Of a stretch of 9,463 nt of DNA, positions 1,152 to 9,146 are shown one piece after another. The stretch comes from Candidatus Thorarchaeota archaeon. Lineage in GTDB: Archaea > Asgardarchaeota > Thorarchaeia > Thorarchaeales > Thorarchaeaceae. Numbering within the stretch: position 1 is the stretch's first letter; each line of letters begins with the position of its first letter. The notes beneath the pieces are model-generated. The model did not search any database. It saw only the letters and a list, made by a program, of their open reading frames with translations, and was not told where the DNA came from. The DNA lies in NCBI GenBank assembly GCA_016839345.1, contig JAEOUL010000263.1, forward strand, positions 1 through 9,463. Reading direction: 5' to 3'. A program made the translations under genes and the position numbers.

Positions 1152-2240
1152 TTGGACATAGTACGCATAGCGCACATCTCTGATTCGCATCTTGGAAGTT
1201 CTATATTTCAATTAACAGAACGTCGGGACGACGCACGGAAATGTTTCAAGAAATCAATCGAGATGGCAATGAAACATTCACCAGACATCTTGGTTCATAC
1301 AGGTGATTTGTTTCATTCACACCTTCCTCAGAATGATGACTTGATTTTCGTTATCGAGTTGTTCAAGAGTCTCAAAGAAAAGGTACGACTCATTGTGCTT
1401 GATGGAAATCACGATATACCATATGGATATCGCCACAATTACAGTCCGCTCCGGGGTCTCGAAACTATGGAACTTATTGTTTCGACCGGCTCTGGACCTT
1501 ATTCAACCTTTACCGAAGCATTTGATGGTAAAAAAGTGGAAATTCATCTAGTTTCATGGACCTCCGTTCCCCAGTTTGAACAATTTTTGAATTCAGCCCA
1601 GCCAACCGAAAAGATTGCACTCTTCTTTGCACATGACATTGAATTACCAAAAGAGAATCTACCAGTTTTTTTCAACTACTATGGATGTGGTCACAAACAC
1701 AATTTTTGGCTTGATGAAGAATATGACATCGGGAGACCTGGTTCAACATGCTTTGTGAATTGGAGCCGAGAAATGGGTAGAAAGAAGAAGCTCATCGTCG
1801 TTGATGTGGATAACTCGGGTGAAAATGAATATACATTGGAAACTCTGAATGATGTGAGAGAGTTCAAATTCGTTACAGGTCTTGATATCACTGGTTTGAA
1901 TGCAGAGGAAGTGAACACGATGCTGAAGACTTCACTTACAAAGCTTTCTCCAAAGAAGAAGAAACCAATTATCATTGTTCATGTGAATGGATTGATTGAT
2001 ACTGAAACCGAGAGGGGAATCGAACGTAGTGCTCTTCTTGAGTACGGAGAAAAGAGGCTAGACCCACTATTTCTGCATATTGAACCAAACTGGTCATCGA
2101 TTGGACCACGACCTGTACAGCTCTCTGAACCTCTGGATGTTGAAACCTCAATCCTAGAGTATATGGAGCAGACGAAGGATAAACGAGCGGGTCAGGTCAA
2201 GCGTATGATGCCACGTTTTTTTGGAGGTGAGCCCAAGTGA
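1152..2240 (+). CDS. mre11: DNA double-strand break repair nuclease Mre11
   Basis: This is a Mn-dependent 3'-5' exonuclease and endonuclease that works with Rad50 at DNA ends. The calcineurin-like phosphoesterase motifs are complete: DSH (D11, H13), GD (D52), GNHD (85-88), AHD (H161) and GHKH (180-183), which together hold the two metal ions. Residues from about 190 to 270 should form the capping domain, and the basic, proline-containing C-terminus (to 362) is where archaeal Mre11 binds Rad50. At 362 residues it is somewhat short for the archaeal family, with the loss at the C-terminal side. The start is a TTG: an in-frame TAA lies at 1134-1136, no other start codon lies between them, and the conserved RIAHISDSHL must begin directly after it. 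The stop overlaps the rad50 start by four bases (GTGA), so the two are translationally coupled. Confidence 0.93.
   Translation: MDIVRIAHISDSHLGSSIFQLTERRDDARKCFKKSIEMAMKHSPDILVHTGDLFHSHLPQNDDLIFVIELFKSLKEKVRLIVLDGNHDIPYGYRHNYSPLRGLETMELIVSTGSGPYSTFTEAFDGKKVEIHLVSWTSVPQFEQFLNSAQPTEKIALFFAHDIELPKENLPVFFNYYGCGHKHNFWLDEEYDIGRPGSTCFVNWSREMGRKKKLIVVDVDNSGENEYTLETLNDVREFKFVTGLDITGLNAEEVNTMLKTSLTKLSPKKKKPIIIVHVNGLIDTETERGIERSALLEYGEKRLDPLFLHIEPNWSSIGPRPVQLSEPLDVETSILEYMEQTKDKRAGQVKRMMPRFFGGEPK
2223..2230 (+). promoter_or_regulatory. Strong ribosome binding site of rad50
   Basis: GGAGGTGA lies inside the last codons of mre11 and matches the complement of the archaeal 16S rRNA 3' end. The core GGAGG is nine bases before the GTG at 2237. 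This fixes the rad50 start and shows that the GTG inside the GTGA overlap is used. Confidence 0.75.
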
Positions 2241-3520
2241 TTAGGCGGCTTGGTCTTCAGAACTTCAAGATCTACAAGAAACAGGAGTTCAAGTTCGAGG
2301 ATGGATCCACAGCAATAGTAGGTCCGAACGGATCAGGCAAGACCACGATTCTTGAAGCCATTGAGTTTGGGTTATTCAGGATGGTAACAAGGAAAGAGAA
2401 GAAGGTTGCACAGGTTGAGGACCTCATTAACCCAAAGGGGAAGAGGGCTATTGTGGAGCTCGAGTTCAAAGCACCTGTGAACCGAAGGGAGTACTTGGTG
2501 AAACGAACGATATACCCAGGTGAAACTAGGGCGGAGCTCTTTGAGGTTGGAAAAAAGGACCCAGAGATCATGGGCGCTACAAGAGTCGATGACAAGATTG
2601 TAGATCTATTGGGAATGGACCGGAATGCCTTCTCAGCCCTGACATATGTTCGACAGGGTGAGATAGACAGACTCTCAAGGTTGACTCCTAAAGGGAGAAG
2701 AACCGACCTCTATTCAATGATGGGTCTCGGTATCTACGACAAGCAGAGTTCCAAGGTACAGAAAGAGATCAAAAAAATGGACAAGGACCTCCAGAGCATT
2801 GTGGAGTCAACGAAACGATTACGGGAAGTACAGGCACATCTTCCAGAGAAGAAGGACATCACTGCGGCTCTCAAAGCCCTCGAAATACTGGAAGAATCAC
2901 TTGGCAAAGAACCGATCAAGAAGGTTCGAGATGTGATTCAGAAAGTCAGCGAGTCAGTAATGGTTGTTGAAGACCAACTCAGTTCTCCTGAATTGTCCGA
3001 GAGACCGGAAGAGCTCGAGGAAGAGTCAGAGGTAGCCAAGTACCTTAAGACCCTGCTTGACACAATCCCAGATGTAGCTGAGAATCAACTGAGACCCCAC
3101 ATCAGAAACGAGGCACGTATCATCTTCAGAGAAATATTTGGAGATCGATACAGTGACCTTGTGATTGATGACGACTACGAGATAGCATTGTATGATCTTC
3201 AAGGAAACAGGATTTCTCTAATGGCTGCAAGTGGGGGGGAAGATGTCTGCGTCAACTTCGCTCTTCGTGTGGCTGTGAACACAGCCCTGCAGAAGCACTC
3301 TATCAGTGGACCTCCGCCAGGGATAATTATCCTGGATGAGCCCGGAGCAGGACTTGACGCTCAACGTCGGATGTGGCTACCTGAAGCAATCAATAGACTC
3401 GATGTTGTTAAGCAAGTCATAGTAGTGACGCATATGGAGGAACTAAAGGGATCGACAGACCACGTGATATCCCTCATCCCACAGGGAAAGGGAAGACAAC
3501 CACTTGTTGAGGTGGATTAG
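2237..3520 (+). CDS. rad50: Short Rad50-type SMC-like ATPase without long coiled coil or zinc hook
   Basis: This is the ATPase partner of Mre11; ATP binding should close two heads over DNA and control the nuclease. The head is complete: N-terminal strand and Walker A GPNGSGKTT (29-37), Q-loop Q140 in YVRQGEIDRL, signature ASGGED (331-336), Walker B IIILDEP (363-369), D-loop GLD (372-374) and H-loop TH (398-399). Known archaeal Rad50 proteins have roughly 850-900 residues, with several hundred in a coiled coil tipped by a CxxC hook. Here the N- and C-lobes are separated by only about 110 residues (170-280): short helical segments around a Pro- and Glu-rich middle. The sole cysteine is C338 in the signature helix, so no hook exists. 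The residue after SGGE is Asp, where Arg, Lys or Thr is more usual. The frame is uninterrupted and motif spacing within each lobe is normal, so this is a compact protein rather than a broken gene. Start GTG is supported by the strong ribosome binding site. Confidence 0.88.
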   Translation: MIRRLGLQNFKIYKKQEFKFEDGSTAIVGPNGSGKTTILEAIEFGLFRMVTRKEKKVAQVEDLINPKGKRAIVELEFKAPVNRREYLVKRTIYPGETRAELFEVGKKDPEIMGATRVDDKIVDLLGMDRNAFSALTYVRQGEIDRLSRLTPKGRRTDLYSMMGLGIYDKQSSKVQKEIKKMDKDLQSIVESTKRLREVQAHLPEKKDITAALKALEILEESLGKEPIKKVRDVIQKVSESVMVVEDQLSSPELSERPEELEEESEVAKYLKTLLDTIPDVAENQLRPHIRNEARIIFREIFGDRYSDLVIDDDYEIALYDLQGNRISLMAASGGEDVCVNFALRVAVNTALQKHSISGPPPGIIILDEPGAGLDAQRRMWLPEAINRLDVVKQVIVVTHMEELKGSTDHVISLIPQGKGRQPLVEVD

Positions 3521-3761: not shown

Positions 3762-4952
3762 CTAAGAATCATCAAAGATTGCTTGCTTGATGTCAGTGAC
3801 CTTTTCACCTTTCATTATTAGACTGCGCAGCTTGAGTGCCACTTTGCGATTTCCAAGTGCAATACCGCCAACAACAACATCATCTTTCAAGACTGCCTTG
3901 AAGTATTTCCCATTCTCCATATCAATTGATACAATGGTTTCAAATTCGGGAGACTCTGGATGGACCAGTCCAATACTTGTCAGATCAATTCCTGCCACCT
4001 GCAGTTGGTTTGAGGGTGTGACTCCTTCGAACTTCGCACTCCCAAATTCGAGCATGTTCTGAGCTGCGATTTTTGCTGTAGCTGTCGCCCAAGGGATAAT
4101 TCCATACCAAGTACCATTGAATTCCATACAGTCTCCTGCAGCAAAGATACCAGGAGATGAGGTCTGCATGTGTTCGTCAACAGCTATCCCCATTTTGTAT
4201 TCGATGCCTGAGTTCTTTGCTATGATTGTGTTGGAGCGAACTCCAGTGGCGATGACAACTAGATCTCCTTGTATGTGATCACCCTGATTGGACACAATGC
4301 CAGTAGCATCCTCTTCACCCGTTATGCCCTTACAAGCGAATCCAGTTAGAACCTGAATTCCCATCAAATCCAGTTGCTTAGTAAGAACACTGCTTCCGAG
4401 AGCATCCAGTTGTACAGGTAGCAGACGGTTATCATAATCAACAACTATAGGCTCACCGCCTACCTCCTTAATTGCCGCCGCGAGCTCAATACCAAGAATC
4501 CCTCCGCCGATAACGATCTCACGACCAGCTCCTTTAACTGCCTCACGTATGTCCAGGGCATCATCTAATGTTCGAATCACATGAACATTGTTTTTATGCA
4601 GCCCTTCAAAGGGAGGTATGTGAGGGCGACAGCCTACTGCGATGAGTATTGAGTCATAATCTCCGTAGTCCTCTGCTGTCGAAATGACTCGTTTCCTCTC
4701 GGGGTCAATTTGAAAAACCGGAGAAGAAAGATAGAGGTCAACATCATTATTCAAGTACCAGTCTAAATCGTGTCGGATGGTTTCTTTTATGGTACGCCGA
4801 TTGGCAACAAGATCAATTAGATTGGGCCGAGGATAATATGGATGTCTCTCATCGGTAAAGACATCAATCTCGATTGCCTTGTCCTTGCCTCGAATCTCAC
4901 GCACAGCAGTGGTAGCCGCAACTCCATTACCGACAATTGCGAGTCTAGTCAT
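3762..4952 (-). CDS. FAD-dependent pyridine nucleotide oxidoreductase (NirB/rubredoxin reductase-like)
   Basis: This cytoplasmic flavoprotein should pass electrons from NADH to a small redox protein or acceptor. In the 396-residue protein, GNGVAA (8-13) binds FAD, and HPYYPRP (37-43) is the motif seen in nitrite reductase large subunit and rubredoxin reductase relatives. GGGILGIE (149-156) binds the nicotinamide nucleotide, with Asp172 at the end of the next strand favouring NADH over NADPH. VIATGVR (233-239) and FAAGDC (270-275) complete the FAD fold, and a C-terminal domain follows (about 315-396). There is no redox CxxC pair, which excludes thioredoxin and lipoamide dehydrogenase types. 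The start is the ATG at 4952: the conserved MTRLAIVGNG begins there and AGGAG lies eight bases upstream. A longer frame from 5018 would begin inside the preceding terminator. The exact acceptor cannot be read from the sequence. Confidence 0.85.
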   Translation of the reverse strand: MTRLAIVGNGVAATTAVREIRGKDKAIEIDVFTDERHPYYPRPNLIDLVANRRTIKETIRHDLDWYLNNDVDLYLSSPVFQIDPERKRVISTAEDYGDYDSILIAVGCRPHIPPFEGLHKNNVHVIRTLDDALDIREAVKGAGREIVIGGGILGIELAAAIKEVGGEPIVVDYDNRLLPVQLDALGSSVLTKQLDLMGIQVLTGFACKGITGEEDATGIVSNQGDHIQGDLVVIATGVRSNTIIAKNSGIEYKMGIAVDEHMQTSSPGIFAAGDCMEFNGTWYGIIPWATATAKIAAQNMLEFGSAKFEGVTPSNQLQVAGIDLTSIGLVHPESPEFETIVSIDMENGKYFKAVLKDDVVVGGIALGNRKVALKLRSLIMKGEKVTDIKQAIFDDS

Positions 4953-4960
4953 TTCTGAAG

Positions 4961-4965
4961 CTCCT
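4961..4965 (-). promoter_or_regulatory. Ribosome binding site deciding the oxidoreductase start
   Basis: On the minus strand AGGAG is followed by eight bases and the ATG at 4952-4950. It supports this start over the upstream ATG at 5018, which has no such site and lies in the T-run of a terminator. Confidence 0.65.
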
Positions 4966-5016
4966 ATCGAGGTCGAACACTGATTCCTTATTGAGTATGT
5001 CGGATGGAGAGTTACC

Positions 5017-5047
5017 AAAAAAGAGGAGGAGGCAAGACATGCCTCCT
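5017..5047 (-). terminator. Hairpin plus T-run terminator of the surface protein gene
   Basis: Bases 5027-5033 (AGGAGGC) and 5041-5047 (GCCTCCT) form a perfect 7-bp stem with a 7-base loop. On the minus strand this is followed, after CCTC, by six T (5022-5017). It lies nine bases after the stop of the gene ending at 5056 and before the oxidoreductase gene, so these two minus-strand genes are probably separate transcription units. Confidence 0.72.
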
Positions 5048-6134: not shown

Positions 6135-6199
6135 CTATAAGAAATGAGAAGAATTTTACTAGTACAGTAAAGTACAACGATGAAGCTCCTGAAATATCT

Positions 6200-6221
6200 C
6201 TTGTAGAGGATACTCTACAAG
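6200..6221 (+). repeat. Perfect inverted repeat in the leader, touching the ribosome binding site
   Basis: CTTGTAGAG (6200-6208) and CTCTACAAG (6213-6221) are exact complements around the 4-base loop GATA. In RNA this would be a stable 9-bp hairpin; as DNA it is a near-palindrome of the kind bound by dimeric regulators. The right arm ends with AAG, the first three bases of the AAGGAGG ribosome binding site. No T-run follows, so it is not a terminator. A role in controlling translation or in regulator binding is inferred. Confidence 0.6.
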
Positions 6222-6225
6222 GAGG
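6219..6225 (+). promoter_or_regulatory. Ribosome binding site of the surface peptidase gene
   Basis: AAGGAGG ends eight bases before the TTG at 6234 and supports this start. The start codon lies in an exact tandem duplication TTGGATA TTGGATA (6227-6240). The second copy's TTG is in frame and well spaced; the first copy's TTG is out of frame. Confidence 0.72.
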
Positions 6226-6233
6226 GTTGGATA

Positions 6234-9146
6234 TTGGATAATAAAGTAAAAGCCACCATTGTAATTCTTATCCTTATGGCTGCGGGTGCTGCTGGCGTTT
6301 TTCTCCTTCTGGGAGGATTCCTAGCTCCAGAGCCAACTTACTCAACTTTCAATGGAGATGCTTGGATCAATGAGGTCCACATGAATTCTACATTGACAGC
6401 GAATGAGGAATATTTTGAGATATACATCTCGAATGACTACACACAATCCTCAATCACAGGTTGGACAATCACAACATTCGATGAAGAAGGTAGAGTAACA
6501 CTTCCTACAATCATGAATGTCGATGCGGAAGATTTCATTGCAGTTTATACTGGAACTGGTTTGGATGACCATGATGCATCCGATGGTACTGCAGTTGTGT
6601 ATCTAGGACTCGAAGATAGAATTCTAGACCCTGAGGGTGATGAGATTGCGATCTTCGATGAGTCAAATCTATTGATTCATTATATGCGATACGGTGGAGG
6701 GAACGGAGGTCCAGTCTATGACGAGTGGAGCACAACAGATGTCGGACCATCTCTTCCAGCTGGACACACTGGATCGCTGTCCTACTTTGGCGAGGACAAG
6801 ACCAACACAACAGCCTGGTTAGAGTCATTGACAACTCCAGGAAACCCTAACAAGTATGCTTTCACCACTGACACTACTGTACCATATTATGTAATCATTA
6901 CTTCAGGTGTCAAGGAACAGTATTCATTTCTTGGAATTGATGACATAAAATCTGCTGGCAAGAATGAAACGATAGACATATTCCCAGCAGCTGGTGTGAA
7001 TGCATCGACTATCAAGGCGATCAAGGAGCATATCGAATTTAGTTTAGAATTCTATGATGGAAAGGGATTTGATCGAGGTCCTGCAACCTACAAACCTGGG
7101 AGAATCAATGTTACAGTTATGCAGGGTACAACCACTGAATCAGTTGGTAGTTGTAATACTGAAGGTGAGATAGTCATCGAGCTTGGCAACATGACGAGTC
7201 TCATCGATCTCAAGTATGTTTGCGAACATGAACTAATGCACGCATTCCAGTTCAAAGTAGAAAACACAGGAGAAGGTAATCAAGACCACGCTCCTTTGAA
7301 GAACAAGTGGTATTTAGAAGGACAAGCAACGTACTGGGGTATCGAATCGACAAAAGCGAATTACAACCTTACCAATTCACAGATTCAAGAGGAGTTCGAA
7401 CGTGTTGGAGACCACAACTGGTTTACACACTATGCTGATCTCAACCGAAGCATCACGATAGGATGGGGAGGTGGCTACTCCGACTATATGGGTTCATACT
7501 TACTCTTCAAATGGATCAGTGAAACATTTGGCGAAGACAAAGTCAAGGAAATCTTTGATAAAGCCAAAGATAATTTTGGCAACGACTCCTTAGATGTGAG
7601 CCCTGAAGATGCAGCAGCTGAAGTGCTTGGGCTTCCATGGGAAACACTGCTTGCAATGTTCCATGCGTGGATGATGTCTGGTGCAATCACTGACAATGGA
7701 GTACCTGAACGAACGGGTCATGTGAATGTTACCTGGTCAGGAACACAGACTGGAGATTCGATTGGTGTTGTTCCACATGGGGCTGGTGTTGAGAGAATCA
7801 AGGTAAACAGCAATGAACCTTTCACGCTGGACTTTCAAACTGAACCAGGCGCAGTCTGGAAAATTACAGTCATCTACGTCTATGCTGATGGTTCGCGTGA
7901 GCAGGCGGAAAACTGTCCAAGGACTTATGCTGGGACGTCATCACCCTGGCCGGTGAATCCAGGAGCTCATGATAAAGTACTAGTTGAAGTAATTGTCATC
8001 AAGACACTAATCACCACTGGTTCAGTGAGTCAGATCAATATGACGCTGACACCAGTCAATCCAATTGGACCTGTACCATTGATTCCAAATACACCAGAGC
8101 CCTTTAAACTCCCACCAGGGTTCTGGAACGAAACAGACCCACATGACTTTCCTTGGTTGAAATCATTCATCTTAAACTACACCAGTGATAATTGGGAACA
8201 TCTCATAGCAATCGATATTCCTGATCCGTGGTTTGTTGATAGCTTCTTCGACATCTACTTCACGATTGATGATGTGATAGTACTCAATACTTCGCATATA
8301 CAGGTCACTGAGGCCAATCCTTACATCATTCCAGTCGATCCTGACGGTTCGTGGCCATTAGGTCTGTATAACATAACTCTCATACAATCAACAGTTGACT
8401 CAGTCATTGAAGGTACAATCGAAGATGTAGCATTCCTACCAGATGGCTATGACTTTGACCATCCACGTCATCATGAATATGGGGAGCTGGTACCGCAGGA
8501 CTCTGTGCAGCATAGAACAACAGGAGACCGTTGGTTCACAACGTATCCATCGAACGCTTCGGCATTCGAGTACTTCCTCACAGTTGGTCCAGAGTTTGTG
8601 ATGATTGCGGACTGGAACATGGAACTATATGTTGCCACAGATCCGACTGCTCCGATTCGCTCAACCGTGGGAGACTATGTAGCTGGAGAATGGCCAAGGA
8701 CTTTGAGTGTTCCAACTATACTCGATCCCGATTGGTCAGAAGATGGATACATACTCAGGGTCATCTATGATGGGGAGTATGCGGTTGGAGAACTCCAACA
8801 TATTGAAGACAGGCTTGAAGGAACAGCATTTGAGAAACCTTTGTGGCACACACTGTATGCGACTGAGTTCTATGGTGCACCCATACCATATCCAGATAGT
8901 GGGATGCTTTACATCAATTGCTCAATCACTGATACGAATTCCCTACGCTTTGATCTGAATGCTACGGTCAACGATTTAGTGGTCACGCTCTGGGTAAATG
9001 GTGTGGTAGTAGAGTCATTTTCTAACGGGGGAGATGGAAGTTATACTGCTTGGCTAAGCAGTGTAGTTGGACAAATGGTGACCATCACTGTGGAACAGGG
9101 TTCACTTGTCGGAGAGGTCTTGTGGCTCTGGTCAAGTACTACATAG
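6234..9146 (+). CDS. Large membrane-anchored surface protein with lamin-tail-like domain and HExxH zinc peptidase domain
   Basis: The 970-residue protein has a short basic N-terminus and one hydrophobic segment (about 8-30), a signal anchor or uncleaved signal peptide, so nearly everything is outside the cell. Residues about 40-155 resemble a lamin-tail domain: AWINEVHMN, EYFEIYISN, ITGWTIT and VTLP in the usual order. A peptidase domain follows: HELMH (332-336) with catalytic Glu333, and WYLEGQATYWGIE (359-371), where Glu362 should be the third zinc ligand. This is the gluzincin arrangement. The rest (about 490-970) is beta-rich and probably forms several sandwich domains for binding or spacing. 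I count 17 N-x-S/T sequons, as expected for a glycosylated archaeal surface protein. No C-terminal anchor is seen. The start is TTG with AAGGAGG upstream. The substrate is unknown; degradation of external protein or processing of cell-surface proteins is inferred. Confidence 0.82.
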   Translation: MDNKVKATIVILILMAAGAAGVFLLLGGFLAPEPTYSTFNGDAWINEVHMNSTLTANEEYFEIYISNDYTQSSITGWTITTFDEEGRVTLPTIMNVDAEDFIAVYTGTGLDDHDASDGTAVVYLGLEDRILDPEGDEIAIFDESNLLIHYMRYGGGNGGPVYDEWSTTDVGPSLPAGHTGSLSYFGEDKTNTTAWLESLTTPGNPNKYAFTTDTTVPYYVIITSGVKEQYSFLGIDDIKSAGKNETIDIFPAAGVNASTIKAIKEHIEFSLEFYDGKGFDRGPATYKPGRINVTVMQGTTTESVGSCNTEGEIVIELGNMTSLIDLKYVCEHELMHAFQFKVENTGEGNQDHAPLKNKWYLEGQATYWGIESTKANYNLTNSQIQEEFERVGDHNWFTHYADLNRSITIGWGGGYSDYMGSYLLFKWISETFGEDKVKEIFDKAKDNFGNDSLDVSPEDAAAEVLGLPWETLLAMFHAWMMSGAITDNGVPERTGHVNVTWSGTQTGDSIGVVPHGAGVERIKVNSNEPFTLDFQTEPGAVWKITVIYVYADGSREQAENCPRTYAGTSSPWPVNPGAHDKVLVEVIVIKTLITTGSVSQINMTLTPVNPIGPVPLIPNTPEPFKLPPGFWNETDPHDFPWLKSFILNYTSDNWEHLIAIDIPDPWFVDSFFDIYFTIDDVIVLNTSHIQVTEANPYIIPVDPDGSWPLGLYNITLIQSTVDSVIEGTIEDVAFLPDGYDFDHPRHHEYGELVPQDSVQHRTTGDRWFTTYPSNASAFEYFLTVGPEFVMIADWNMELYVATDPTAPIRSTVGDYVAGEWPRTLSVPTILDPDWSEDGYILRVIYDGEYAVGELQHIEDRLEGTAFEKPLWHTLYATEFYGAPIPYPDSGMLYINCSITDTNSLRFDLNATVNDLVVTLWVNGVVVESFSNGGDGSYTAWLSSVVGQMVTITVEQGSLVGEVLWLWSSTT

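Follow-up and report, generated by a model that had tools for sequence, protein, structure and literature searches.

A 9,463-nucleotide contig from a Candidatus Thorarchaeota archaeon, referred to in its full length as the window, encodes a short-armed, hookless Rad50-type ATPase of 427 amino acids (aa) (2237..3520, + strand; GTG start), whose gene overlaps by 4 bases that of its own Mre11 partner (1152..2240, +; 362 aa). An initial annotation, made from the DNA alone, had described this locus as a compact Rad50 without a zinc hook paired with an intact Mre11, and that description is borne out here. In related genomes the two proteins constitute an old accessory second Mre11-Rad50 pair rather than the sole one. 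We propose that they probably form a second, specialized ATP-gated DNA-end nuclease complex of Thorarchaeota, which would operate without long-range tethering.

Head, arm and Mre11 partner of the short Rad50

The open reading frame (ORF) of the short Rad50 is uninterrupted through 427 codons, and its translation contains a Walker A motif GPNGSGKTT (aa 29-37; 2321..2347, +), the Q-loop residue Q140, an SGGE signature motif (aa 332-335; 3230..3241, +), a Walker B motif IIILDEP (aa 363-369; 3323..3343, +), the D-loop residue D374 and the H-loop His399 (3431..3433, +), all at the positions given in the initial annotation. In an alignment of 89 rows, picked from 120 listed proteins with fragments excluded, G29, G32, G34, K35, T36, Q140, S332, G333, G334, E335, C338, D367, E368, D374 and H399 are 100% conserved. 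Thus, the protein possesses the complete bipartite ATP-binding cassette (ABC) head of a canonical Rad50, from Walker A to H-loop, and, judging from these motifs and a structure model, its two half-lobes should form one ATPase head.

The nearest sequences in the PDB are the Rad50 heads 5f3w (116.8 bits) and 3aux (115.7 bits), which we take to be those of M. jannaschii. Searches against Pfam returned AAA_23, SMC_N and SbcC_Walker_B sub-threshold, while the best NCBIfam match was Rad50_Sulf (NF041034), at 149.5 bits in two stretches against a curated cut-off of 1000. This low score is in part a consequence of the missing arm; a canonical 934-aa Asgard Rad50 (L050) also falls under its equivalog cut-off (302.1 versus 700). 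Three other families were likewise below their cut-offs, namely RecF (TIGR00611; 58.2 bits, cut-off 172), Arcadin-4 (NF053563; 73.7 bits, cut-off 860) and the ASRP (coalescin/Sph) family (NF045487; 41.3 bits, cut-off 300). According to passages of PMC9389158, the vast majority of ASRP proteins carry a zinc hook, and the short Rad50 has no CxxC. Since it lacks both the long arm and the hook that belong to the definition of a canonical Rad50, we file it as a Rad50-type variant.

A single-chain model (mean predicted local distance difference test score, pLDDT, 88.5) predicts helices at residues 165-201, 205-222, 225-248 and 256-301, with lengths of 37, 18, 24 and 46 residues. The first of these, arm helix A (2729..2839, +), leads to a distal helical hairpin (aa 205-248; 2849..2980, +) that replaces the long coil and zinc hook, from which arm helix B (aa 256-301; 3002..3139, +) runs into lobe II. 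Although this is not the long antiparallel coiled coil of canonical forms, the claim of the initial annotation that there is no coiled-coil arm was too strong, as the model shows a short helical arm capped by a hairpin. In helix A hydrophobic residues recur with a period of exactly 3.5 residues, typical of heptads, at a strength that none of 5000 shuffles equaled, and the two hairpin helices are also 3.5-periodic (16/5000 and 2/5000 shuffles as strong). The segment between the lobes (residues 165-301) measures 138 residues in 80 of the 89 rows and 134-137 in the other 9; depending on where the lobes are taken to end, the distance is about 120-137 residues, close to the approximately 110 first estimated. 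The mean frequency of the commonest residue is 0.78 and 0.87 in the two lobes, as against 0.46-0.56 in helix A and the hairpin, and for the region 200-265, in which the initial annotation had placed a possible alternative apex contact, model and alignment predict a helical hairpin whose length is conserved while its sequence varies. Constant length combined with drifting sequence is more in keeping with a defined helical arm than with a random linker.

No CxxC was found in any of 134 retrieved short-Rad50 proteins (P0002-P0135, from the best 120 of 340 and the best 120 of 335 matches), the window's own being one of the 134. The window protein has the single cysteine C338, just as had been noted at the outset, and the number of cysteines per protein across the 89 rows is one in 75, two in 13 and three in 1. 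The lengths are similarly uniform, with 129 of the 134 proteins spanning 410-446 aa and the other 5 spanning 341-401 aa. A relative whose gene at this locus encodes a normal coil and hook, the case that would have contradicted the initial annotation, was encountered neither among these proteins nor in the 24 genomes discussed below.

The Mre11 partner comprises the phosphodiesterase domain, the capping domain and a C-terminal helix pair. Its TTG start is a probable one; relatives are mostly 355-365 aa long, and the database prediction for the contig is 323 aa. In 77 aligned rows D11, H13, D52, H87, H161 and H183 are invariant and N86 and H181 are conserved in at least 90%, so that all seven metal ligands and the catalytic histidine, with roles that we take over from P. 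furiosus Mre11, are present. The protein aligns to its very end with Mre11 chains of Mre11-Rad50 complexes (e.g. 3av0_A), and the model places C-terminal helices at residues 330-340 and 346-356 (2139..2219, +), which are predicted to be the Rad50-binding helix-loop-helix, a role presumably shared with the known complexes. Pfam identified it as Metallophos, the best NCBIfam match was the Mre11 equivalog (90.5 bits, cut-off 500) and the nearest PDB sequence was the Mre11 3auz (49.2 bits). The TGA reported within the Mre11 match of genome G204 does not interrupt the gene; it is the stop codon with which both the gene (ORF 6176-7303, L054) and the match end.

Distribution, the hooked second pair and descent

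We surveyed 227 genomes in the phylum of a named Thorarchaeota genome, with at most 7 candidates per genome scored for the short Rad50, 8 for its Mre11, 5 for a hooked Rad50 of about 700 aa and 3 for the 934-aa canonical Rad50. Strong matches to the short Rad50 occur in 24 of them (best E per genome ≤1.9e-56; next genome 4.3e-23), with identities down to 52% and with G186 and G211 holding it only in part. Its Mre11 is found in the same 24 genomes (best E ≤2.1e-32; next genome 6.7e-21), and this identical distribution, along with the overlap of the genes in the window, indicates an adjacent, co-inherited partner. Both genes are under purifying selection: the ratio of nonsynonymous to synonymous changes (pN/pS) of the short Rad50 is 0.14-0.26, with synonymous divergence (dS) saturated in all four pairs compared, and the dN/dS of Mre11 is 0.05-0.07 in three of four pairs, the fourth being saturated.

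As far as seen, the pair is restricted to a single Asgard block, which consists of 47 genomes (G001-G004, G184-G226) whose hooked Rad50 is at least 41% identical to the query, as against at most 36% in all others listed, and which we call Thorarchaeota-type from the names of loci L001-L004. It occurs in 24 of these 47, and its absence from G189 and G214, each nearly one contig, indicates that incompleteness is not the only cause of absence. A search of genome contigs with the short Rad50 yielded 4 Thorarchaeota loci and 4 weak matches. Single family members are named Odin-, Hermod-, Hod- and Promethearchaeota, for which wrong binning and a wider range are both possible.

With the hooked Rad50 of G001 as query, 99 of the 227 genomes give matches at E 1e-20, including all 24 with the short pair. 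Of these 24, 20 have the hooked protein complete, G186 and G192 have it in two pieces, and G003 and G205 have a part that ends before the hook. The Rad50 zinc-hook domain PF04423 is detected at E 1e-3 in 17 of the 24 (not in G003, G004, G185, G188, G192, G203 and G205); the hooked Rad50 of G185 (L092) has a CxxC despite lacking this match. The motif was read at residue 337-355 in each of 20 sampled hooked Rad50s (L060, L090-L104, L106-L109), 9 of which come from the 24 genomes. Of the two possibilities raised in the initial annotation, a second, specialized pair therefore stands, as a statement about the relatives rather than about the window's own organism, whereas a minimal enzyme serving as the lineage's only Rad50 is ruled out by the hooked paralog in 24/24 relatives. 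A third Rad50, the 934-aa canonical form (query from G199), is whole in G198 and G199 and in two pieces in G193; it is also found in pieces in G218 and G219, both without the short form.

The two pairs differ in their genomic context. In G001 (L060) the 692-aa hooked Rad50 is preceded by a 436-aa Mre11, a HerA-like protein of 589 aa and a 433-aa protein; the last of these occupies the usual place of NurA and has no Pfam or NCBIfam match. An mre11 and a herA-like gene adjoin the hooked rad50 in all 20 sampled loci, relatives of the 433-aa protein are present in 13 of the 20, and the Pfam HerA central domain was recovered in 5/5 further HerA-like proteins checked. In contrast, the window and 13 short-pair loci showed no match (E 1e-4) to three HerA-like Asgard proteins, one HerA or the L060 protein in the NurA position; proteins of the hooked locus gave only weak matches there, to the short mre11 itself. 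The short pair is hence not part of a HerA-NurA-Mre11-Rad50 operon, in which herA and nurA lie beside mre11-rad50. Of the 20 sampled hooked Rad50s (e.g. L060 2948-5026 (-)), 16 have S[FY]GD as their signature motif and the other 4, which are more distant, have SGGD; the S[FY]GD version is seen in 9/9 sampled genomes with the short pair, 7/11 without it and 14/14 of those sampled from the 47-genome block.

Other Asgards contain another hookless pair, which is long-armed: in G068 and G069, Rad50-like proteins of 788-792 aa (L088 1393-3759, L089 1309-3687) have no CxxC, a signature SGGTED and an adjoining Mre11-like gene, the best match of the L088 protein being Rad50. The best matches to the short-pair Mre11 outside the 24 genomes are the Mre11s of G068, G069, G071 and G072 (26-27% identity).

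The locus is marked by a convergent FAD-dependent oxidoreductase (3762..5018, -; Pfam and NCBIfam family calls), which we do not regard as a component of the complex and which adjoins the short pair in 12 of 13 related loci listed, L063 being the exception. Ten loci with this oxidoreductase from pair-free genomes were compared (L110-L119). In G202, G226, G218 and G219 its near neighbors are genes known from the flanks of the pair in other genomes, and nothing of the pair itself can be seen; G189 matches one flank in part, and G200, G209, G214 and G201 are uninformative on the flank. In G196 a decayed C-terminus of the short rad50 (L105 6945-7109 (-)), matching residues 373-426 at 57% and bearing two in-frame TGA codons, sits between the oxidoreductase and the next gene. 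The empty sites and this remnant show that loss of the pair has happened at least once; where present, it is mostly found at one and the same chromosomal site.

The identities of the short and hooked Rad50s rank alike across genomes (Spearman 0.77, n=18, G001 and five genomes with partial matches being left out; the two sets are measured against different references), which fits vertical descent. In a 55-sequence tree of heads, computed without four sequences lacking the DEP motif near the C-terminus (L086 and three structural maintenance of chromosomes (SMC) proteins), a single 100/100 branch, about 1 in length, separates all 12 short Rad50s from the hooked and canonical forms. The 12 short-pair Mre11s likewise lie beyond a 100/100 branch of length about 1 in a 35-sequence tree. 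The head-tree nodes neighboring the short forms have SH-aLRT (Shimodaira-Hasegawa-like approximate likelihood ratio test) values of 12.3 and 82.9, and the tree does not single out a parental long Rad50.

Two further genes of the window were noted. A 970-aa protein (6234-9146, +) shows a weak match to the lamin-tail domain and, by eye, a HELMH zinc-peptidase-like motif; a 76% identical relative occupies the same site in G002 (L066), and the other 12 short-pair loci, as retrieved, contain nothing that matches it. Upstream of mre11 lies a 126-aa cysteine-containing ORF (697-1077, +), which matches no family in Pfam, NCBIfam or PADLOC and nothing in the 24 related loci compared.

Known systems, proposed function and alternatives

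Canonical archaeal Rad50-Mre11 complexes (NF041034, NF002572; heads 3auy, 3qku) have hundreds of coil residues and a CxxC hook, as opposed to the 134-138-residue segment of the short Rad50. Practically the same architecture, with two lobes and a cut-down coil, is seen in the engineered Rad50 nucleotide-binding domain (NBD) heads 3auy, 3qkt and 3qku (the construct 3auy_A has 366 residues numbered 4 to 1004); however, these are laboratory truncations with an artificial linker, whereas the short Rad50 is natural, length-conserved and hairpin-capped. The hooked herA-linked Asgard Rad50 is likewise paired with its own mre11, and differs in an estimated 170 or so arm residues per side, as well as in its hook, signature and neighborhood. 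A head with little or no coil is shared with arm-poor SMC-type ATPases such as PADLOC mad3 and AriA. RecF too is an SMC-type head with little or no arm, and the partners of RecF, mad3 and AriA differ from Mre11. The hinge-less oceanic SMC variants (PMC12153180) resemble the present case in having an SMC-superfamily head without an arm-tip module, but those are bacterial SMC proteins that keep the coiled coil, and the passages concerned mention no Mre11 partner. Natural arm-poor SMC-type heads and hinge-less SMC proteins are therefore already known; the new element is a second pair in which a short-armed Rad50 without a hook is joined by a complete Mre11 of its own, a combination that is not described in the titles, abstract openings and selected passages of the literature that we covered.

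By sequence and model, the head and Mre11 hold all the parts needed for an ATP-driven clamp-and-cut cycle, and the short Rad50 should work like a Rad50 head, although in taking this step from structure to function we infer throughout. Two Mre11 subunits would dimerize, and each would use its C-terminal helices to dock at the base of one Rad50 arm. With ATP bound, the two heads would clamp DNA; upon hydrolysis they would open and allow cutting by Mre11, in the manner of canonical head complexes. The arm would be roughly 6-9 nm long, estimated at 0.15 nm per helical residue, and this length combined with the missing hook suggests that two complexes could not be joined over a long distance. The short complex may hence be a local nuclease, gated by ATP, whose substrates would be ends, hairpins or blocked ends, while the hooked complex of the same genomes would take over tethering and HerA-coupled work. 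Passages of PMC8824468 report a truncated P. furiosus MR-NBD complex that tested as active.

Several observations weigh against the proposed nuclease complex. Taken as a whole, helix B lacks a clean heptad periodicity (2838/5000 shuffles as strong). The patchiness of the pair, which is present in 24 of the 47 block genomes and lost in some, indicates that it is dispensable in the block. Coil residues have also been removed experimentally from a Rad50 that we take to be that of yeast. Passages of PMC6315862 report that end joining was severely impaired upon removal of about 300 of these residues and that recombination was lost upon removal of about 500. Such defects suggest that so short an arm may serve a purpose different from canonical repair.

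Other explanations of the locus are less consistent with the evidence. It is scarcely credible that an ordinary rad50 lost its coil and hook in one genome through a recent deletion, or in one assembly through a collapse: the window is one short contig with no long reads, but the conserved length in 129/134 proteins and the recurrence in 24 genomes refute this for practical purposes, and the lack of CxxC throughout, the divergence down to 52% identity (with two partial copies), the purifying selection and the position of 12/12 short forms on one side of the head-tree branch point the same way. We consider it improbable that the pair is a defense or mobile-element module, in which a short-armed ATPase and a nuclease would act against foreign DNA like the anti-phage arm-poor SMC/Rad50-type ATPases. 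The PADLOC model mad3 (374 positions) is collinear with residues 2-423 of the short Rad50 (113.7 bits; of the MADS gene set, the search covered mad3) and reaches 137.2 bits with the G185 form, and patchy presence would suit such a module. However, mad3 also matches long Rad50s (102.8 and 121.5 bits) and so is not specific, the sole PADLOC match of Mre11 amounts to 17.9 bits, and both the recurrent oxidoreductase neighbor and the divergence that ranks with that of the hooked Rad50, measured against different references, speak against it. An origin from phage or plasmid was rejected as well, given that none of the 437 matching phage and 23 matching plasmid records had one place covering 80% of the query; viral contigs gave one weak match to the short Rad50 (29%, residues 9-198).

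We also think it unlikely that, instead of being part of an independent nuclease, the short Rad50 is a structural or regulatory head by which the hooked Mre11-Rad50 is modulated, for example through mixed heads. ABC ATPases with an SYGQ signature are known to work. The co-presence of the hooked form in 24/24 genomes would be compatible with such a role, and the replacement of SGGE by S[FY]GD in most sampled hooked Rad50s raises the prospect that the hooked ATPase might be altered; but the occurrence of S[FY]GD in genomes without the short pair, the activity of SYGQ enzymes and the presence of the short Rad50's own Mre11 in 24/24 genomes argue against it.

The Asgard archaea are the group thought to be closest to the ancestor of eukaryotes. 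Tentatively, Thorarchaeota might have split the Mre11-Rad50 job, such that the hooked complex tethers with HerA and the short one only cuts, with the short arm and its hairpin tip possibly being a distinct working part, e.g. a local clamp or a hook-free contact between heads. If true, this would make tethering and cutting naturally separable. The role of the long coil and zinc hook of Rad50 has so far been studied via laboratory truncation; a natural, long-conserved Rad50 without either, which has its own Mre11 and shares its genomes with a hooked one, offers a test of which Mre11-Rad50 functions need the arm.
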